Shown here: positions 7,620 through 59,139 of the stretch, piece by piece
Layout of the letters: each line of letters opens with the position of its first letter
How positions within the stretch are numbered: the stretch's first letter is position 1
Source: Deltaproteobacteria bacterium
GTDB lineage: Bacteria > UBA10199 > JACPAL01
Length of the DNA stretch: 64,000 bases
Direction of reading: 5' to 3'
Assembly (NCBI GenBank): GCA_016180845.1
Contig: JACPAK010000003.1
Span: 186,001 to 250,000 of the forward strand
Notes under the pieces: generated by a model
The model's input: the letters and a program-made list of their open reading frames with translations, nothing else
Database searches by the model: none
What the model was told of the DNA's origin: nothing
Position numbers and translations under genes: made by a program

Positions 7620-7635
7620 TGCAACCGGTGTGCCA
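7620..7635 (-). promoter_or_regulatory. Sigma-54 (-24/-12) promoter for delta-60 protein
   Basis: Minus-strand TGGCAC-ACCGG-TTGCA matches the RpoN consensus TGGCAC-N5-TTGCA at every fixed position. The predicted transcription start, 12 bases past the GC, is about 7609, only 5 bases before the ATG. Confidence 0.8.
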
Positions 7636-18619: not shown

Positions 18620-18664
18620 CTGATAATTTTTATCAGATTGATAACGGTTTTGGGTTAACCAAAA
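18620..18664. promoter_or_regulatory. Two dyad-symmetric elements upstream of giant gene
   Basis: In an AT-rich stretch after coaC: CTGATAA-TTT-TTATCAG (18620-18636, perfect 7-base arms) and TTTTGG-GTTAA-CCAAAA (18648-18664, perfect 6-base arms around the palindrome GGTTAACC). They lie about 50-95 bases upstream of the sigma-54 element, the position expected of an enhancer-binding activator site. The first could instead be a weak terminator of coaC. Confidence 0.45.
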
Positions 18665-18714: not shown

Positions 18715-18730
18715 CGGCATACGAATTGCA
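18715..18730 (+). promoter_or_regulatory. Sigma-54 (-24/-12) promoter for giant surface protein
   Basis: CGGCAT-ACGAA-TTGCA: the GG-N10-GC spacing and TTGCA are kept; two bases of TGGCAC differ. Predicted start about 18741, giving a 19-base leader (with AGCAGG) before the ATG at 18760. Confidence 0.65.
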
Positions 18731-18759: not shown

Positions 18760-21700
18760 ATGAAGAGACGACTGGTCATCGTAATTTTTCTCGCCCTGTT
18801 TGGTCTCACGCTCACTCTCTTTGCCCAAGAACAGACAAAACCTGAAGGACGCGTCGGCGGAGGACAGGGATCGGCCGGCGGATGTTCCTGCCCACTCGCG
18901 AAAAAATCAAAACGGGATGGACTTGTACCGACCGGTGGTGAAATCCAGCAACCTGCCACCCCTCCAGATACTGACAAGGACGGCAAACCGGATGAAGACG
19001 ACAAGGATGATGACAATGACGGCATTCCCGATAAGGAGGATTCCTGTCCACTCAATGCCGCAAACAGCTGCGTTCAAGGGGAAACGGGGTCGCGATGCAG
19101 CTCGGATGGGGATTGCAGCCCCGGTTTTGCCTGTAATGAATCAGGGGACGTCGGTCTCTGCGAACAGGATAGCGATCGAGATGGAACTCCTGATTCTCAA
19201 GATAATGACGACGACGGTGATGGGATCGATGACGGCAATGATGGCTGCCCTCTTGATAGCACCAACTCCTGCACGGAAGGCCGATTAGGTTCTCGCTGTG
19301 CGACAAATGCCGACTGCACCGCCGGTTTCGCCTGCGATCCGACAAACAACACCTGCCAGACTGATTCGGATGGGGATGGGACGGTTGATCAGCTCGATAT
19401 CTGTCCCAATGACAGCACGAACCAATGCCTTCCCGGCGGCGGTCCGTGCACTCCTCCCCGTTTCTTTGATGGGGCGACCTGTTCCTGCCCGGCGGGAGAG
19501 ACCTGGAATGGAACCACTTGCGTTGAAGAACCGGAACCGCTTCCCGGAGAGGGAGTCGAGGGGGCGCTGCTTCGATTCGATCTTGATCCAACCACCTTCG
19601 GTCGTTGGACAGGAACGTTCACCGATGAAGGAGACGGTAACTACAGCGCCTCTGTCTACGATTTGAATACCGCTGGCGCTGCAAATCTCGAGGCAGAGAT
19701 CCTCGCTGGTCCATCAGTCGACGAAAGGATATCGGCAACTTCAACCCCCTTTGAGATCCGTACAGCAGTCGTTCGTGAGACAACAATCTATCTCGCTGAG
19801 AACCAGCTTCAGGCCTTTGCGCAAGTCGTGGGGGCGAATGGAGAACCGGTCGCCCCAACTACCGTTGTCAATTTTGAGATCATTTCTCAAGGGGCAACAC
19901 CAACTGTTATTGTAGGACCAGTCCGAGGAACCTCTGAAGGGGGCGGGATCTTCAGTGCAGACCTCACGATTCCCCCATCGGAATTTGATGGGACCGGCAA
20001 TATCCGTGACCTACGCGTGAGTGTTGATGGGATCACATCTTCCTTTGTCCGGGATATCCGGTTTCAACAGCGTCAGCGGTCGCTTGACCTCTCAACAGCC
20101 GGAGAGGTTGGGATCGTCCTGCCGGCAGCGAATCAATACACACCGGCCAGTGGAGATGCCTGGTTCATCGTACCGGTCACACTTCAGGCAGGAACTGAAA
20201 ATATCAATTTCTATCAGATTGAGATTCAATATAACGCCAATCGTCTCCGGATTATTGATGCCGCTAATGATGTCGGCCCTGGCAATGATGCCGGATCATT
20301 TGGAGATCCCGGAGCCGATGATTTCGCTCGAGGGGCTTCTGGATGTTCAGCCCCTGTCGATTACCGTTGTCTGCGATTTAACACCTCAAGTCCTACCGGC
20401 GAGAGGGCCGATGCCAGCGGAAGGATGGAGATTGCGGAAGTCAGATTTCATATTGTTGACTCAACCGAAGAGCGGGCGGAGATTTTGGGATCTGTCCAAA
20501 GTATCCTCCGACGATGCGAGGCAGCTGACCTCACCTGCGACCCGAATATCGTCTCTACCGAAACACCAATCCAGGTAGTCGACTTCGACAGTCAAGGAAC
20601 CGTCGGCGAGGTCCTGACCCCTGTCACTCGGGTGGTTAGTTATTTTGCCTGGCCAACAGAGATCGACCTCTACAGGGCTGGGACTATCCTGCCGGGAACA
20701 GGGTCGATTCAGGTTCGTCAACTCCGTAACCGTCTCGGTGATAATCTCAGTACCCCAACCGGTGTCACAGGGAGAATTGTGGCAGGGAGCGGACTCTTTT
20801 TTGCTGCGGACCTTTCCTACAGAGTCACTGCCGATGGTGAATCAGAGATCGAGATCACACTTCCCGATGGTTCGACCCAGCGCGGAATGAGGGTCAGAGG
20901 TGAAATAGCAGATGACAATGAAATCACTCTCCAGCTTGCCGATTCGACACTGAACCAGATCTCCGGAACTACTCCGGCTGTCTGTCAGAGGACTCAGGCA
21001 ACTGTTGGATGGGTTGTTCCCGAACGCAATGCAAGCACGACATTTCCTGCGCGTCCTTCGTTTAACATCGATCTTTCACCCTGGACCACATGGTCGGCCA
21101 CGGGACCGTTCGTCGTGAATGACATGGATGACAATCTGCCCCGTGGACTTGTCGAAACCGTCGGCTGCCCGGAAACAGGAGCAGTCTCAGGAACCATCAC
21201 CGCCAACGGTTTCGGGCTCGGTCCACAAACATCCCCGATAACAGCCAATGGCGACCAGGAGGTGACCGTTTCCAGCCTCCAGGTTGGGGTCCCCGCAACC
21301 ATTGGGTTCCGTGCCGTCGATGGCAACACGATCACTCCAAATCCGACAGCAACACTGCCGGGAACGGCGACCGGTTTTGTGCGTGTGACGAATGCGCTAA
21401 CCGCGCTCGACTCACAGGCCCCGATTGTCGTCTGGGCCACGACCACCGATCCCGATCTCCCCGGCGGGACATCAAGATATCTCGCCTCACCGGACACCAC
21501 CTTTTCGATCGATCCGGCCGATCCACAAGATATTATCTGTCTGACCACACCCCTCGAGCCTCGGCTATGCCTGGATACCGGCGGGACCCTCGTCAATGCG
21601 ATCGGAGGAACAGAGGATGGCGCCAGGGCGGCCGTCACAGCAACTTACGGTGGAGCGACGTCGAAGGGTTCGGTTCTTGTTCGAGTCGATTCCGCAACAG

Positions 21701-52103: not shown

Positions 52104-53345
52104 TTAGCGGAACGACAACACACGCTCGATGACATCCCCCATCACCTGATTCGGTGTCGAGGCGCCAGAGGTGATTCCAATCTGGATCTTACCGGGAGGA
52201 AGCCAGTTTTCTTCGACAGAAGCCTCAAATTTTCCAACCGGCTTGTGACGAATTTCTGTTGCCGAGATCAGACAATCCTTGTCTTCAATATGATAGGTTT
52301 TCGCACGGGAGGCGGCGATTTTGGCCAATTGATTCGTATTGCTTGAGTTATACCCTCCGATCACGAGCATCAGATCGAGATCTTTCTGGATCAAATCCTT
52401 CATCGCATTCTGTCGGTCCTCAGTCGCACTGCAGATCGTATCAAAATTCCGAAAGTGCTGGCTCAGATGATCCTCTCCATACCTTACTGCGAGCGCCTGT
52501 TTGATCCTCTCGGAAATCGCCAACGATTCACTCATGAGCATCGTTGTCTGATTGGCAACACCAACTTTCTTGAGATCTACTTCTGGATTGAAACCGGGTG
52601 AAACCTGTTTCCTGAATTTGGCCAAAAATTCCTCGGGATCTCCACCTTGTTGGATATAATGGCAGAGAAACTCCGTCTCCTCCATATCTAGCACAATCAG
52701 ATAGCGTCCTTGGGGATATGCCAAGACCCGAGAGCTCGTCGCCTGGGTCTCTTCATGATAATACTTCCCATGAATCACAGCGGTAAAACCTTCTGTCGCA
52801 TAGCTTTCGACCCGCTTCCAGACATTCAAGACTGAACCACAAGTGGTATCTACGAGGACAGAACCTTTTTCCTGAAGTGTCTGAATCTGACTCGCCGTCG
52901 CCCCGAAGGCAGGGAGAACCACCACATCCTCTTTCTGAACCCGCGAATAATCCTCCAGGAATTGAATCCCCATTTCGCTCAGATTCTTGTTTACGCGGGG
53001 GTTATGGATAATCTGTGCCGTAAGAAAAATTCTCCGGTCGGGGAATCGCTTTCGGGTCTCATAGGCAAGATCAACCGCCCGATCCACGCCGTAGCAAAAC
53101 CCGAAGGAACCAGCGAGATGAAACGTGACCCCCTTTGCCGAATAAACATTCCCCCCCTCAACAATCCTCGAGACAATATCACTGTGATAATCACGAATCA
53201 GATCCTTTTGGACCACCTGCTTGAGGCCAAAACTTTTTCGGATCAGTTGATGAGCTTCTTCCATAAACGCCGGGATAGACCTTAACCCGAAAAACGTCAA
53301 CTTTTCGATGCCATCTGGGTTAAAGATCACCCTTTTTCTTGCCAA
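52104..53345 (-). CDS. ispH: 4-hydroxy-3-methylbut-2-enyl diphosphate reductase, long type
   Basis: Last step of the MEP pathway, making IPP and DMAPP with a 4Fe-4S cluster. The three cluster cysteines are in SFGFCYGVDRAV, LVDTTCGSVLNVW and FDTICSATEDRQ. Other IspH signs: IIHNPRVNKNL, HGKYYHEETQATSS, LVIGGYNSSNTNQL and ITSGASTPNQVM. At 413 residues with about 85 before the first Cys and an insert in the middle, it is of the long cyanobacterial/plant-like form rather than the about 310-residue proteobacterial form. The start is uncertain: TTG at 53345 (used here) or GTG at 53330; no ATG precedes the conserved part. A -35/-10 pair (TTGGAC 53385-53380, TATCAT 53363-53358) lies just upstream. Confidence 0.93.
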   Translation of the reverse strand: MARKRVIFNPDGIEKLTFFGLRSIPAFMEEAHQLIRKSFGLKQVVQKDLIRDYHSDIVSRIVEGGNVYSAKGVTFHLAGSFGFCYGVDRAVDLAYETRKRFPDRRIFLTAQIIHNPRVNKNLSEMGIQFLEDYSRVQKEDVVVLPAFGATASQIQTLQEKGSVLVDTTCGSVLNVWKRVESYATEGFTAVIHGKYYHEETQATSSRVLAYPQGRYLIVLDMEETEFLCHYIQQGGDPEEFLAKFRKQVSPGFNPEVDLKKVGVANQTTMLMSESLAISERIKQALAVRYGEDHLSQHFRNFDTICSATEDRQNAMKDLIQKDLDLMLVIGGYNSSNTNQLAKIAASRAKTYHIEDKDCLISATEIRHKPVGKFEASVEENWLPPGKIQIGITSGASTPNQVMGDVIERVLSFR

Positions 53346-53357
53346 TCAGATTAAAAA

Positions 53358-53385
53358 ATGATAGCGATTCCAGTCAGTTGTCCAA
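53358..53385 (-). promoter_or_regulatory. Sigma-70-like promoter for ispH
   Basis: Minus-strand TTGGAC (53385-53380), 16-base spacer, TATCAT (53363-53358), ending 12 bases before the TTG start. This gives a leader of about 5 bases. Confidence 0.45.
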
Positions 53386-53395
53386 AGTTGGGTTT

Positions 53396-53411
53396 TGGAA
53401 CAATCTTTGCA
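53396..53411 (+). promoter_or_regulatory. Sigma-54 (-24/-12) promoter for lipoprotein A
   Basis: TGGAAC-AATCT-TTGCA, GG-N10-GC. Predicted start about 53422, leader of 50 bases to ATG 53472. Same hexamers as at 57012-57027. Confidence 0.78.
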
Positions 53412-53471
53412 GAATTAACCGTCACATCGGGTCCCTTTTAGGGGGGGCTATAAACAAAGGGAGGGGGATAT

Positions 53472-55853
53472 ATGAAAAACAAAATCGCCTTTAGAGGATT
53501 GATCGTCGGTCTGACCGCCAGCCTCTTCTTGTGGGGTGCCATCTCAGTCGGTGGATTGGGGGGTTGCGGCTCTTCAAAGAAAGCGAGCACGACAACGACC
53601 GATAGCGACGATGAAGATGGAAGCACCGACGCCGGCGAGGCCTCAGTCGGGGCACTTCGAACCACCCCGAGCGCCGACATCTCCAGTCTGGATAAAAGCT
53701 TGAGTTCTTCATCGGCTTCAGCTCTCACGGTCCAAGCGGCAACAGTTGTCGTCGATAACGGACTCCAGGCGTTTGAAAATGTTCGAGCTGAAGGAAAGGG
53801 ATCCCGGGCCGGTTGTGAGTCGAATATGCACAAGCAGGAGATCTTCCGGATGGGTGTTCAGGTGGAACTCGAAAAATGTTACCCGATGGCGATGGAGGCG
53901 GGTGGTCTGATTGAAATCCCGGATGGTTCGGTAGTCCTTTATAGCATTAAACCTCCGGACCCAGATGAGATGGGGGATTTTGAAGAACAAGAAGCAGCAA
54001 AAAAAGAACCTGCTGCTCAGCCGCCTGCTGGTGGACAACCTCCTAGTGGCGGCGGACAGCCCCCGAGTGGTGAACAGCCTCCGAGTGGTGGGCAACCCCC
54101 CAGTGGTGGACAACCTCCAAGTGGCGGCCAACCCCCCAGTGGTGGACAACCTCCAACCCTCGCCAAACATGCCGAAGTTGATGATAAAGAGGCCTTCTGT
54201 GGTGATATCCCCGATGAATTTGAAGATCAGAAAAAGGCCTGTGAAGAAGGCGGAGGAGGCATGGCAGAAAGCATCAAGATGCGGATTGGGAAAAACCTGG
54301 GTGCCAATAAAGATGAATTACAGATCGATCTCTGTTTTGGCCCTGATGGATCCGAGGCTCTCGAATCCGAAGGGACTTATACCGCCAGCGACTCGGTTTA
54401 CACGGCGAACATGGTTCGTATCGGAAAATTCCTCGGTACAGAGGAAAAAACGTCATTTGATTTAACAGTCGATCTTGGAACCGACGGGAAGGTGACTGAC
54501 GGGGATGTGAGCTTAGGAACAGACGGTTCCGCTACCGCCACCGCCAAGATGGTCGGAAAATGGGGAAGTGGCCAGATGACCTTTACCGCGACACCGACAG
54601 AAAATACCTTGAAGGGTGGCTTCGGTGGTGGTTTTAAGGATCCGATCACAAAAATTCTGACTACTTTTGTCGGAAAGACCTACGCTGTCTTTAGCGCCAC
54701 CGAGGGGTGTGCGAAATTCAGCTTCACCGGTTCCCCACCTCCAATGCGTTTGCAAGACATGGTCCCGTTCGATATTGACGCCAACCGACTGGGTGGCTTC
54801 TTGTCGACGATCAGCCTCGATATCTGTGGGGTCGGCGCCCTCACCACCTCAAACTACAAGACAGTCAACGTCTGCCCCAATCCGAATTTCGATCCGGCCG
54901 CCAGTGCAGACAATGACTGTCCGATGATCGCCGCTAAAGCGGATGGAACCTGTGAAGAGGTCACGCATATCGGCACGGAATGTTTTGCGATCTCGAATGG
55001 ATCCTCCTCAGGAGATTTTGCGAAACAGGTCACGCAGACCTTCAAGCGGATCGCCGATTCGGCATCGACTTACTTCAGCGTGGTCAAGGATATTGACATG
55101 ACCACTATCGCTGCCGACAAGCCGACTATAGAGTTCCCAAGGTCTTGGGACTGTACTGGCAGCTTTACAGCAATTGACTTCACTGATGACTCGAAGGTCG
55201 ACTTCGAGGCGATGGGGAAGGCAATGGATAAGTGCTTTTCCCTGCAGGAGAAGGGGAATTCGAACCAAGGAATGGGTGGCTACAACTGTCATCAGGAAGA
55301 AAATATGAATGGTGTGAACGCAATCGCGGATGCCGGTCCTCGCGATATGGGTAAGTATGGTGGGGAATACCAGCGTGTTGCCGACGCTGGTACCTGTTCC
55401 ACCACACAAGCCTCAAATCTGATCCGTATCGACCCTGTGGATGTGAAAACCAATAAATACTGCATCCCGACAGACACGAAGTGTGAGGAGTTTACGATTA
55501 GAACCCTGTCAGGGTTCGTAATAGCAGCCAAGGAAGATTCAAACACCGGTCTCGGGATCACGATGCCAGGTCATCTGCCAATCGCTGGAATCTCGTTTGG
55601 TGCAGAAGGATCTGGTAACGTTGCCCAGGCGGAATTCCGGTTTGGCAACAACTTCAACTCTCCAACATGTACGGCAATCCACAAGCTCAGTCAGCCAACC
55701 TTTGAAAAAGCGAAGGATGCCTTTGCCGATCCCACGAAGCCTCCTGATGAGGGTGGACCCCCGAAGGCCTGCACAGACAAATTCGGCACCAGTGTCACAA
55801 AGGATCAGTGTGACAGCTACTGCCTCCAGAAGGGTGTCGATTGCAAAGCATAA
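53472..55853 (+). CDS. Surface lipoprotein A (paralogue of lipoprotein B)
   Basis: 793 residues. Signal sequence with lipobox L-G-G-C (Cys32), then a Ser/Thr-rich linker. Shares with the protein at 57055 an N-terminal block (PSADISSLDKSLSSSS; GCESNMHKQEIFRMGVQVEL then EKCYPMAMEA), the central G-x-ATxGCAKFxFxG segment (TEGCAKFSFTGSPPP), NYKTVNVCPNPNFDPA, ADGTCEEVTHIGTECFAISN, the NxGMGGxNC box and the tail PPKACTDKFG. It has an insert of QPPSGG repeats (residues about 183-229) absent from the paralogue. Many paired Cys suggest disulphides. The function is unknown; it is under a sigma-54 element and ends at a strong terminator. GGAGGGGG lies just before the ATG. Confidence 0.85.
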   Translation: MKNKIAFRGLIVGLTASLFLWGAISVGGLGGCGSSKKASTTTTDSDDEDGSTDAGEASVGALRTTPSADISSLDKSLSSSSASALTVQAATVVVDNGLQAFENVRAEGKGSRAGCESNMHKQEIFRMGVQVELEKCYPMAMEAGGLIEIPDGSVVLYSIKPPDPDEMGDFEEQEAAKKEPAAQPPAGGQPPSGGGQPPSGEQPPSGGQPPSGGQPPSGGQPPSGGQPPTLAKHAEVDDKEAFCGDIPDEFEDQKKACEEGGGGMAESIKMRIGKNLGANKDELQIDLCFGPDGSEALESEGTYTASDSVYTANMVRIGKFLGTEEKTSFDLTVDLGTDGKVTDGDVSLGTDGSATATAKMVGKWGSGQMTFTATPTENTLKGGFGGGFKDPITKILTTFVGKTYAVFSATEGCAKFSFTGSPPPMRLQDMVPFDIDANRLGGFLSTISLDICGVGALTTSNYKTVNVCPNPNFDPAASADNDCPMIAAKADGTCEEVTHIGTECFAISNGSSSGDFAKQVTQTFKRIADSASTYFSVVKDIDMTTIAADKPTIEFPRSWDCTGSFTAIDFTDDSKVDFEAMGKAMDKCFSLQEKGNSNQGMGGYNCHQEENMNGVNAIADAGPRDMGKYGGEYQRVADAGTCSTTQASNLIRIDPVDVKTNKYCIPTDTKCEEFTIRTLSGFVIAAKEDSNTGLGITMPGHLPIAGISFGAEGSGNVAQAEFRFGNNFNSPTCTAIHKLSQPTFEKAKDAFADPTKPPDEGGPPKACTDKFGTSVTKDQCDSYCLQKGVDCKA
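54018..54156 (+). repeat. Tandem QPPSGG-coding repeats
   Basis: About eight imperfect 18-base units encoding QPP(S/A)GG variants inside lipoprotein A. Third positions differ between units. It forms a proline-rich spacer that could vary in length by slippage. Confidence 0.9.
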
Positions 55854-55873
55854 GGTAAGACTCGATTACGAAA

Positions 55874-55910
55874 AAAAGGCCCTGTCTCCGTCAAGGAGGC
55901 GGGGCCTTTT
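55874..55910. terminator. Bidirectional intrinsic terminator after lipoprotein A
   Basis: AAAAGGCCC (55874-55882) pairs with GGGCCTTTT (55902-55910), plus inner pairs GTCTCC/GGAGGC around a 5-base loop. The A-run on one side and T-run on the other allow use in both directions. The last codons and stop of the opposite TPR-like gene lie within it. Confidence 0.85.
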
Positions 55911-56220
55911 GCTTTAATAAAGTCTCCGCCTTCTCATGCTGGCCCGTTCGATCATAGAGATCTGCCAGCTTTTTCTTTAGATCATTGTTGTCAGGATATT
56001 TGACCAGGAGATTCTCATAAACCCTTATCAGGGGAAGATACTGCTTCTGCTTCAACCCCTCCTCCCCCTTTTCACGAAGAAAACGGGACGCCTGCTCTGT
56101 CTTGTCCGCCGCATCCTTCGCTGTAAAAGAGGGAAGCAGTCGAGAAGGTTTGCGTAAAAAAAAGAGGTAGCCTCCAGAGACCACCGCGAGTCCTATCAAA
56201 ACAAGAATCAGTTTTTTCAT
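55891..56220 (-). CDS. Small membrane-anchored TPR-like protein
   Basis: 109 residues from the ATG at 56220, which overlaps the coaB stop (ATGA), so translation is likely coupled; an upstream TTG is disfavoured. One N-terminal membrane helix (LILVLIGLAVVSGGYLFFL), then a soluble helical part. YLPLIRVYENLLVKYPDNND followed by LKKKLADLYDRTGQHEKAET is a tetratricopeptide-like pair of helices. The last residues KAPPP and the TGA are encoded inside the terminator hairpin. Function unknown; probably inner-membrane with a periplasmic or cytoplasmic TPR face. Confidence 0.75.
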   Translation of the reverse strand: MKKLILVLIGLAVVSGGYLFFLRKPSRLLPSFTAKDAADKTEQASRFLREKGEEGLKQKQYLPLIRVYENLLVKYPDNNDLKKKLADLYDRTGQHEKAETLLKQKAPPP

Positions 56221-56885
56221 GACTGTTTTATAACCCAATTCATGATTGCCTTGGCTAGTTTTTTTTTGCCGGTTACTTTTTTGATTTCAAATTGTTGACG
56301 GCGGGTGACGAGATAACCGGCATGCCTCTCATCCTCCCCCTCTGTCAAAAAATTCCCGACAACCATATCGGCTTTCGACTCCTTCATCAAGCGTCTGGCA
56401 TGGGCAAGGAGCGTCACCGGTTCGGAAACCTCCAGCTTAAATCCGATTAAAAAGCTCTTGGGAGACCAAACCTTGATCTTCTGAATAATTTTGGGAGTCG
56501 GCTTGAGCTCGAGAGTCCATTTGCCCCCCCTCGAGCCCACCTTCCCCTTCCTGACTCGAGAGGCCTGGAAATCAAGAACTGCCATCGCATGAATGACAGC
56601 GTAATACCCGCCTCTAGATAATTCTCGTTTCAAGACACGCCCCAGGTCGTCATTTGTTTCAATGGGAATCAATCGTAGTCGAGGGTGAGACCTTGGCGTC
56701 TGACTTCCCCTGCCATAGACCATTGTCACCTTCATCCGGTTTCGCAACGCCTCTTCCACCAGAAGTGTCCCAAAACGCCCTGTCGATCGATTCGAAAGAA
56801 AGCGAACCGCATCGAGCGAGGCCCGGGTGGGGCCCGAGGTAATGAGGATTTTTTTGAAAGCGATAACCATGATGTTTCCCAACAT
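56217..56885 (-). CDS. coaB: Phosphopantothenate-cysteine ligase, stand-alone CoaB
   Basis: Joins cysteine to 4'-phosphopantothenate in CoA synthesis. About 222 residues, corresponding to the C-terminal half of CoaBC. KILITSGPTRASLDAVRFLS and NRSTGRFGTLLVEEAL are the diagnostic N-terminal motifs; later FQASRVRKGKVGS (dimer/Lys strand), LIGFKLE, KADMVVGNFL and VTGKKKLAKAIMNW match the family. Two ATGs are possible: 56885 (AAGG upstream, used here) and 56870. No coaC-type domain is attached; coaC is at 18045-18611. It is followed by the coupled TPR-like gene. Confidence 0.9.
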   Translation of the reverse strand: MLGNIMVIAFKKILITSGPTRASLDAVRFLSNRSTGRFGTLLVEEALRNRMKVTMVYGRGSQTPRSHPRLRLIPIETNDDLGRVLKRELSRGGYYAVIHAMAVLDFQASRVRKGKVGSRGGKWTLELKPTPKIIQKIKVWSPKSFLIGFKLEVSEPVTLLAHARRLMKESKADMVVGNFLTEGEDERHAGYLVTRRQQFEIKKVTGKKKLAKAIMNWVIKQS

Positions 56886-57011
56886 TGACCTTTTTTGATC
56901 TTTGGTCAACCTGTCAACAAAATGACAGAAAACGGGTCCAATTCAACCCATGATTCAGATTGACAGAGACAGATTATGGTGTAGTTTCAGCCAGTTAATG
57001 AATTCTTAATT

Positions 57012-57027
57012 TGGAACTGCTCTTGCA
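57012..57027 (+). promoter_or_regulatory. Sigma-54 (-24/-12) promoter for lipoprotein B
   Basis: TGGAAC-TGCTC-TTGCA, GG-N10-GC. Predicted start about 57038, with AAGGAG (57044-57049) then 5 bases to the ATG. Confidence 0.78.
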
Positions 57028-57054
57028 GATTCCTCACTCATATAAGGAGATTCT

Positions 57055-59139
57055 ATGACTATTAAAATGAGAGGATCGTTATTCGTTGGAAGTTATTTTG
57101 TCATGTTCCTTTTACTTGCTCTCAGCGCCTCAGGCGGCATCTGGGGCTGCGGAAGTACAGGAGCGACTCGAGGGACTACTGGAACCACTGATGGTGGAAC
57201 CGGCGAAACAGAGGCGGGCGTCGCCAGTGTTTCTTCTCTTCAGACGATCCCCTCAGCAGACGTCAGTAGTCTCGATCCTAGTTTAAAATCAGCCTCCTCC
57301 AGCTCTGCTCTGAAAATGAAATCTACCGCTATCAGCGAGTCCGAAGGGTTTTCACGCCACGGGTGCGAGGCCGATATGCATAAGAGGGAGGCGATTCGCA
57401 TCACAGGGGAGGCGGAGATATCCAAATGTTACATCAAGGCGATGGAAAAACTGGATCTGATCGAAATCGGAGATGAGGTCTACAACTATTACGTGATCAA
57501 GCCGGAGATGGAATTCGAGGATGCCCCTCCAAGTCTGAAGGCACAGGCCGATGGTGAAGATATCTGTGACACAATTTCGGATGATGACACGGAAAAGAAG
57601 AAGGCCTGTGAGTCTGGTGAAATCGACACAGGGGCCCCTGAAGAGATCAAGGCCCGGTGTGGGATTTTTTCCGGCGATCTCCGTTGCGACCTCTGCTTCA
57701 ATGGAGCATTGGAAGAAGAGATGCACTATAAAGGCGATGGCGCGATTTACACCGGGGGTGTCAGACATCAATTTACTGATTTCGGCAGTGAGGTGGAAAA
57801 AGGCAAAATCGATGTGACAATTAACCTGGGGACCACTGGAAAGATCAAAGACGGTCTTTTTGATGCCGGAACCGATGGCAAGGCGGAAGTCACTGCCTGC
57901 ATGGATGGCCGTTGGGGGACCGGTTGCATGAGCGTCGAGGCGAATGCCACTGAATTTGTCCTCGGCGGTGTCTTCAGCGGGAGTTATACAGACTTCGATG
58001 GTTTCACGACATCATTTGAAGGAAAGGCGAAGGCGATCCTGACCGCCACCGATGGCTGCGCAAAATTCCAATTCAAAGGCGCACCTCCCTCCTGGCCTGT
58101 GGCAAATATGATCCCACCGGGGATGGCCCAGAAGGATGTTGAAAATTTCCTGAAGAACTTTAACCTTGAATGCGCCAATTGTAATATCACGGCGACGAAC
58201 TATAAAACGATCCGGCTCTGCCCGAATACAAAGTTCGACCCAGCTGATACCACCGATCGGGACGCCCCCATGGTCCTGGCAAACGCCGATGGAACTTGTG
58301 CAGAGGTAACCCATATCGATACGGGATGCTTCTTGATCTCAAACGCACTCAATGAGGGACAATCAGGAACAAAAATCACGCAAACCTTCCTGAAAGTCGC
58401 CTGCTCCAAAACGACTGTCGGATCGCGGTGTGCTGATTTTAACGTGAGCGCGCTGACCGCCGACGTCAGCGACCTCGGTTTCCAGAGGAACTGGGATTGC
58501 TCCGGTGACTTCAAAACGGTCGACTTCTCGAGTGTCACCAATGAAAAGTTGGAAGAGGCCTTCGGCGAATGTTTTGCGATTGAGGAGAAGCTGTTTGATA
58601 ACGAAGGAATGGGCGGTAATAACTGCATGGAGGCCGAGCAGTTTGATGAAGTCGAAGAGTTTACCGATGATGGTGGTAAAAACTTCGGCAACTGTGGTGG
58701 AGAATATGTCAAGACCTCCGGCGGCTGCCCCGCCAGTGTCCCGGATAAATTATGGGTCGACCCTATCGATCCGACGAATGGGAAATACTGTGTGATGACC
58801 GCGGACAATACCTGTCTTGAATTCACGGTCAATGGAACCTCGACCGGTACTGTTTCGCTCTCGATGGGGAGTGGCACATCGATCACTTCAATTAATTACG
58901 ACAGTGGTTTTACGACAGCAACCGTGGTCTTCTCCGCTACGTCAGGCGGTTCGACTACCACTTGCACCAACGTGCATTCAATCAACAAACCGACGTTCGA
59001 AAAACAGGATGCCTTCAACCCGGATGACGCCGATGGACCTCCGAAGGCCTGCACGGATCAATTCGGCCCTGATGTGTCGGAGCAGGAGTGTCGCGCCTTT
59101 TGCACTCAGGCAGATGACCCGTGTAGTGTAAGAGACTAG
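57055..59139 (+). CDS. Surface lipoprotein B (paralogue of lipoprotein A)
   Basis: 694 residues. Signal sequence with lipobox I-W-G-C (Cys32, the same position as in lipoprotein A) and a Gly/Thr linker. Same order of blocks as the paralogue: PSADVSSLDPSLKSASSSS, GCEADMHKREAIRITGEAEI then SKCYIKAMEKLDL, ATDGCAKFQFKGAPPS, NYKTIRLCPNTKFDPAD, ADGTCAEVTHIDTGCFLISN, NEGMGGNNCMEAEQFDE and tail PPKACTDQFG. It lacks the QPPSGG insert. Highly acidic, Cys-rich. I do not recognise the family. AAGGAG is 5 bases before the ATG; a terminator follows at 59164. Confidence 0.85.
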   Translation: MTIKMRGSLFVGSYFVMFLLLALSASGGIWGCGSTGATRGTTGTTDGGTGETEAGVASVSSLQTIPSADVSSLDPSLKSASSSSALKMKSTAISESEGFSRHGCEADMHKREAIRITGEAEISKCYIKAMEKLDLIEIGDEVYNYYVIKPEMEFEDAPPSLKAQADGEDICDTISDDDTEKKKACESGEIDTGAPEEIKARCGIFSGDLRCDLCFNGALEEEMHYKGDGAIYTGGVRHQFTDFGSEVEKGKIDVTINLGTTGKIKDGLFDAGTDGKAEVTACMDGRWGTGCMSVEANATEFVLGGVFSGSYTDFDGFTTSFEGKAKAILTATDGCAKFQFKGAPPSWPVANMIPPGMAQKDVENFLKNFNLECANCNITATNYKTIRLCPNTKFDPADTTDRDAPMVLANADGTCAEVTHIDTGCFLISNALNEGQSGTKITQTFLKVACSKTTVGSRCADFNVSALTADVSDLGFQRNWDCSGDFKTVDFSSVTNEKLEEAFGECFAIEEKLFDNEGMGGNNCMEAEQFDEVEEFTDDGGKNFGNCGGEYVKTSGGCPASVPDKLWVDPIDPTNGKYCVMTADNTCLEFTVNGTSTGTVSLSMGSGTSITSINYDSGFTTATVVFSATSGGSTTTCTNVHSINKPTFEKQDAFNPDDADGPPKACTDQFGPDVSEQECRAFCTQADDPCSVRD

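Follow-up and report, generated by a model that had tools for sequence, protein, structure and literature searches.

Two paralogous lipoprotein genes share predicted sigma-54 promoters and an upstream inverted repeat that recurs before exported-protein genes across a bacterial class

Paired promoter elements at two lipoprotein genes

In a 64,000-nucleotide stretch of the genome of a Deltaproteobacteria bacterium (assembly GCA_016180845.1, contig JACPAK010000003.1, positions 186,001 to 250,000; hereafter the window), two paralogous lipoprotein genes, here called A and B, are each preceded by the same -24/-12 element, TGGAAC-N5-TTGCA, and further upstream by an inverted repeat, GGGT-N8-ACCC. The same arrangement recurs in other genomes of the class, largely in front of genes for exported proteins. 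On the evidence of these sequences it is highly probable that one bacterial enhancer-binding protein (bEBP), among seven candidates, drives a regulon of exported lipoproteins, including A and B, through sigma-54.

The pattern TGGAACNNNNNTTGCA has two matches in the window, at 53396-53411 (+) and 57012-57027 (+), with exactly one upstream of each gene, as an earlier note on this DNA had claimed. The mean number of matches in 100 dinucleotide shuffles of the window is 0.06, and no shuffle contained two. The two sites found by this pattern search, TGGAACAATCTTTGCA at gene A and TGGAACTGCTCTTGCA at gene B, are the predicted -24/-12 promoters; in both, GG and GC are exact and stand at the standard spacing, and the fourth base is A, not C. 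The spacers differ in the way the note had described (AATCT versus TGCTC), and its statement that the core was kept while the surroundings drifted also holds, as all 11 fixed positions of the element are identical compared with 29 of 105 flanking positions in an ungapped comparison. The interval 53396-57027 that it reported runs from the first element through the second and hence takes in all of gene A as well; two minus-strand open reading frames (ORFs) at 55891-56238 and 56217-56909 fall inside this span and play no part in the finding.

Gene A (53472..55853, +), characterized by ORF, profile and sequence searches, encodes a protein of 793 amino acids with a lipobox-like GCGSS and PPSGGQ repeats. 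Gene B (57055..59139, +), identified as a paralogue of A by its ORF and by protein comparison, encodes 694 amino acids, and the two proteins are 37% identical (E 1e-130). In both proteins the N-terminus has a hydrophobic stretch that terminates in a lipobox-like GCGS. Neither protein has a usable match in Pfam or among PDB sequences, and NCBIfam gave nothing above cut-off, with two rows far below it. The fold predicted for lipoprotein B from a three-row alignment has a mean pLDDT (predicted local distance difference test score) of 37, too low for a fold comparison. The distance from the -12 box to the start codon is 60 nt at A and 27 nt at B, and Shine-Dalgarno-like sequences, read directly from the DNA, stand before both starts: GGAGGGGGA at 53460..53468 (+) for A and AAGGAG at 57044..57049 (+) for B.

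Conservation of the promoter in homologous genes

Homologues of A and B are present in 18 of the 46 genomes of the class. All six family members found in the two genomes of the source organism's GTDB family have a properly placed -24/-12 site. Upstream DNA could be read for 24 homologous genes, and 13 of them have a good site, which lies no more than 60 nt from the start codon chosen in 12 cases and 180 nt from it in the other. Sites were scored with a simple self-made weighting of the sigma-54 consensus, a good site being one with a score of at least 0.84 or, at L022, an exact match. The 99th percentile of the best scores in random 300-nt pieces is 0.84 for shuffled and 0.92 for native DNA, both taken from these loci, in which such sites abound. 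The 24 genes do not include L071, which lies at a contig end, or the second gene segments L081, L083, L085 and L086. Close relatives have kept the -24/-12 site, as have some of the distant ones.

The earlier note had proposed selection on the promoter after duplication. Selection on the promoter is well supported, because all six family members of the two GTDB-family genomes keep the site in upstream DNA that is otherwise at chance identity. The note had further expected conservation restricted to the -24/-12 region, but GGGT-N8-ACCC is also conserved, at a nearly fixed distance. Nor is the shared A of TGGAAC a conserved feature: the four other promoters of the two GTDB-family genomes have C or T in its place, relatives show -24 forms such as TGGCAC, TGGCAT or TGGTAC, and the TGGAAC form is confined to genes A and B.

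The shared hexamers could in principle reflect nothing more than a recent duplication or gene conversion, with no selection on the promoters. In a tree of 15 homologues, A, B and one gene of genome G001 are grouped (86/98), with the order among them not resolved, and this moderately supported clade is what such an origin would lead one to expect; the third gene of the source genome (G000) is paired with a G001 gene (100/99). However, the low protein identity, the contrast between chance-level flanks and a fully identical element, and the presence of the same layout at the more distant genes G000C and G001c already contradict this explanation, which we regard as very improbable.

Sigma-54 machinery of the source genome

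The source genome (2.13 Mb in 12 contigs) contains a single rpoN gene, recognized by a Sigma54_DBD domain above cut-off in a profile search. Its product has near its end the stretch SRRTIAKYRE, which we take to be the RpoN box. Sigma54_activat has nine matches in the genome, seven of them with full-length scores. Three of these seven activators are NtrC-like and encoded beside a PAS histidine kinase, two are FHA-AAA+-HTH_8 proteins and two are large protein kinase-TPR-GAF-AAA+-HTH_8 fusions. The pattern TGGMACNNNNNTTGCW occurs 21 times in the genome, compared with 4 occurrences of the reversed pattern; 19 of these sites read TGGCAC, and the only TGGAAC pair is that of A and B. Across the 46 class genomes, TGGCACNNNNNTTGCW has 914 matches compared with 42 for its control. 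Because the genome has one rpoN, seven full activators and a strong over-representation of such sites, the -24/-12 elements of A and B are very likely sigma-54 promoters.

Two loci carry activators fused to eukaryote-like protein kinase, TPR and GAF domains (L188, 1126-6153; L189, 1185-4589). At a third (L192, 18-3070) the gene for an FHA-type activator follows one whose match to T2SSM is below threshold, and this activator is a candidate for connecting secretion to the regulon of exported proteins.

The upstream repeat and its recurrence in the class

The inverted repeat is GGGTTAAAGATCACCC at gene A (53317..53332, +), 79 bp before the -24 box, and GGGTCCAATTCAACCC at gene B (56934..56949, +), 78 bp before it. 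We propose that both are enhancer sites, that is, upstream activating sequences (UAS). They are the window's only two copies of GGGT-N8-ACCC, with about one match expected by chance. Shuffling puts the probability of finding GGGT-N8-ACCC in both 110-nt upstream regions at about 2e-7, while any shared 4-bp inverted repeat with a gap of 0-12 is found in 2.2% of shuffled pairs. The support for the repeat lies in its recurrence. All six lipoprotein-family genes of the two GTDB-family genomes have a repeat starting 76-79 bp before the TGG, exact (8/8) in five promoters and GGGT-N8-ACCT (7/8) in one, and an 8/8 repeat is found in 0.125% of shuffled 300-nt upstream regions. No copy of GGGT-N8-ACCC was found in the fetched neighbourhoods of the seven bEBP genes or of rpoN, and the idea that the repeat controls the bEBP genes themselves was rejected on this ground.

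Between the repeat and the -24 box lies an element resembling an IHF site, TTCCAGTCAGTTG at gene A (53368..53380, +) and TTTCAGCCAGTTA at gene B (56985..56997, +). The former, located by alignment, is a weak match at the place occupied by TWTCAN5TTA in many modules of the class. With at most one mismatch, WATCAANNNNTTR occurs between UAS and -24 box in 19 of 38 modules, whereas shuffled sequences reach 16%; its position in the modules is often the same, roughly 27 bp upstream of the TGG.

The complete module (UAS, N50-80 and TGGN8TTGC) has 52 matches in 27 of the 46 class genomes, compared with 6 matches of the reversed control. A strict form (TGGCAY, TTGCW), which omits A and B owing to their TGGAAC, has 33 matches in 20 class genomes, 2 matches in 339 other genomes and 1 in the reversed control; part of the contrast between the class and other genomes reflects the number of sites, because genomes outside the class have fewer sigma-54 sites each. 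The spacing from UAS to TGG is bimodal, with 27 of the 52 modules at 76-81 bp and 17 at 88-96 bp, approximately one helical turn apart.

The fetched loci contain 53 distinct module strings, 38 of them with TGG[CA]A[CT]. One strict module has no ORF; among the remaining 37, a simple rule calls the encoded N-terminus exported in 36, 19 of them with a lipobox, compared with 14 exported (2 with a lipobox) among 36 background genes of the window, A and B included. The other 15 strings comprise 8 that were called exported and 7 that were not, the latter probably being mostly chance matches. In G001, three near-identical copies of the module lie at contig ends (C3:109-200, C3:143880-143971 and C5:261-352), which may point to a lipoprotein gene family whose repeats interrupted the assembly.

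A consensus match by itself never proves function, and both elements could be chance matches without effect, with A and B transcribed from promoters of the sigma-70 type. We found no sigma-70-like site near the start of either gene, and such an explanation is at odds with the enrichment of the elements over shuffles, over reversed patterns and over the 339 other genomes; we consider it extremely unlikely.

A model for the regulation of A and B

In the model that we favour, sigma-54 RNA polymerase would transcribe A and B, each from its -24/-12 promoter. At about 78 bp upstream, GGGT-N8-ACCC would be bound by one shared bEBP of the NtrC superfamily, and the DNA would perhaps be bent at the intervening TWTCAN5TTA element by IHF or a similar protein. 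The bEBP would thereby loop to the sigma-54 holoenzyme at -24/-12, contact it and open the promoter, giving messages whose leaders carry a Shine-Dalgarno sequence. A and B would belong to one class-wide regulon that responds to a common signal and whose products are exported and in many cases lipoproteins.

The sigma-54 promoters could be real and the repeat unrelated to their activation, being instead the operator of some other repressor or a terminator-like hairpin of the neighbouring genes. On the minus strand, the copy at gene B does have a terminator-like score, and a divergent ORF starts near the repeat at each of the two genes. However, the repeat is also present at the G001 relative, where the upstream gene has the same orientation, the distance from repeat to -24 box stays within 4 bp in six promoters, and the spacings cluster one helical turn apart throughout the class. 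Fixed, turn-clustered spacing is expected of an activator looping to sigma-54, and for this reason we consider the operator or hairpin explanation unlikely.

Several observations weigh against activation of A and B by a shared bEBP. Their TGGAAC differs from the TGGCAC of all 19 other TGGMACNNNNNTTGCW sites in the source genome, and their IHF-like elements are weak, with 2 mismatches at best. Upstream regions of homologues that lack the element, which the earlier note had named as evidence against promoter selection, do occur in distant genomes, as 11 of the 24 homologous genes have no good site. The sigma-54 score and the exported-protein rule are both simple and self-made, and the choice of gene starts was lenient, though the same for the background. 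The motifs were spotted by eye and then counted, with no motif program, and the N50-80 bound limits the visible spacing, such that the second cluster may be cut.

If activation by a shared bEBP is correct, a mostly uncultured class gains a surface-protein regulon that is concrete and open to test, with an enhancer code that can be read in the DNA. With this code, members of the regulon can be predicted from sequence alone and unknown lipoproteins grouped by the signal that they answer, and the promoters of A and B provide a case where those of paralogues can be traced element by element across a class.

Leaderless messages and other upstream sequences

The survey of sigma-54 sites also revealed many start codons placed very close to the -12 box. 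Among 140 listed rows from 11 class genomes (some sites give more than one row), an ATG stands 12-13 nt after TGGCACNNNNNTTGCW in 36, mostly without a Shine-Dalgarno match, and a second group of ATGs at 22-30 nt usually has one. Another 90 class rows, limited to gaps of 8-15, show a broader peak with 36 at 12-13, and class-wide there are 247 short-gap rows compared with the 914 TGGCACNNNNNTTGCW sites. In the source genome an ATG follows the -12 box by 8-15 nt at 11 of the 19 TGGCAC sites. Transcription from sigma-54 promoters starts about 12 nt after the GC of the -12 box, which would leave leaders of about 0-5 nt at those 11 sites. Starts about 10-15 nt past the -12 box, with no Shine-Dalgarno sequence, are seen at loci L003, L007, L008, L009, L012, L013, L017, L019, L020, L021 and L022 of the source genome. 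One of these, L013, is in the window, where an exact TGGCAC-N5-TTGCA at 7620-7635 (-) precedes an exported-looking ORF starting about 15 nt on. Most of the apparently leaderless sigma-54 genes in the source genome and the 11 class genomes encode proteins with signal peptides.

This pattern suggests leaderless sigma-54 messages in the class. A and B themselves were considered as leaderless and dropped, because both have Shine-Dalgarno leaders and starts well past the -12 box. The notion that all sigma-54 sites have such spacing lost support in a comparison in which 18 of 109 rows outside the class fall at 12-13 nt, compared with 36 of 99 in the 11 class genomes; the 109 are those with a gap of 0-21 among 150 listed rows, and a slight excess at 12-13 remains there (P 0.012). 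If confirmed by transcript ends, the pattern would couple leaderless translation to control by sigma-54 to an extent not met in the literature surveyed. Leaderless-looking sigma-54 sites also occur before small transposase-like ORFs (L050 and L058/L112), which resemble REP-associated transposases.

Two further upstream sequences accompany sigma-54 sites of the source genome. TTATC-N5-GATAA inverted repeats, often in two copies 17-19 bp apart, lie 86-130 bp before the -24 box, as pairs at L003, L005, L007, L017, L019 and L021 and singly at L002 and L016. The window has one at 18630-18644 (0.02 expected), followed 85 bp on by a weaker CGGCAT-N5-TTGCA (18715-18730) and an exported-looking ORF at 18760; this locus probably holds a further sigma-54 gene, one not caught by the exact pattern. 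The other common sequence, CCGTCCGATTTTC or its complement, is found at L004, L006 and L020, whose genes we take from their sequences to be comEA-like, unknown and comM-like, respectively, and a sigma-54 competence group is possible.

These observations lead us to a broader and tentative proposal, which we regard as a real but far from secure possibility. The class may use sigma-54 as a main switch for the cell exterior through several parallel enhancer codes (GGGT-N8-ACCC, tandem TTATC-N5-GATAA and CCGTCCGATTTTC), where GGGT-N8-ACCC would mark a lineage-specific regulon of exported lipoproteins and leaderless messages would serve a considerable share of the sigma-54 genes, with the ATG at the promoter's start point.

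Comparison with known systems

A limited search for literature joining RpoN, secreted proteins, lipoproteins, an upstream activating sequence and IHF found none, and the exported-protein regulon with GGGT-N8-ACCC was not found in print within the limited literature searched. The layout at A and B resembles that of enhancer-dependent sigma-54 promoters of the NtrC/NifA/PspF type, with GG at -24 and GC at -12 at standard spacing, an inverted repeat about 100 bp before the start and, between them, a possible IHF-like site that is weak at A and B. The targets differ, being exported proteins and in many cases lipoproteins, and to our knowledge GGGT-N8-ACCC matches no established bEBP site.

The Rrp2-RpoN pathway of Borrelia works largely through RpoS rather than through direct sigma-54 promoters at each lipoprotein gene. 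It is similar to the present case in placing surface lipoproteins under a sigma-54 network, as is mentioned in PMC3162934. That work (Francke et al. 2011) ties sigma-54 to lipoproteins and surface molecules across bacteria; its available text stresses the synthesis and transport of surface building blocks, whereas here the exported proteins appear to form a regulon with a common enhancer site. A likeness in target genes is seen with the sigma-54/EbpA system of Leptospira interrogans, a species that also has many leaderless mRNAs, where sigma-54 sites lie before putative lipoprotein genes and three promoters are named (PMC5243855). Leptospira belongs to another phylum, and the available part of that account describes no GGGT-N8-ACCC layout. 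Control of surface molecules by sigma-54 is known; what is new is a proposed regulon marked by an enhancer repeat of its own and almost exclusive to one class.

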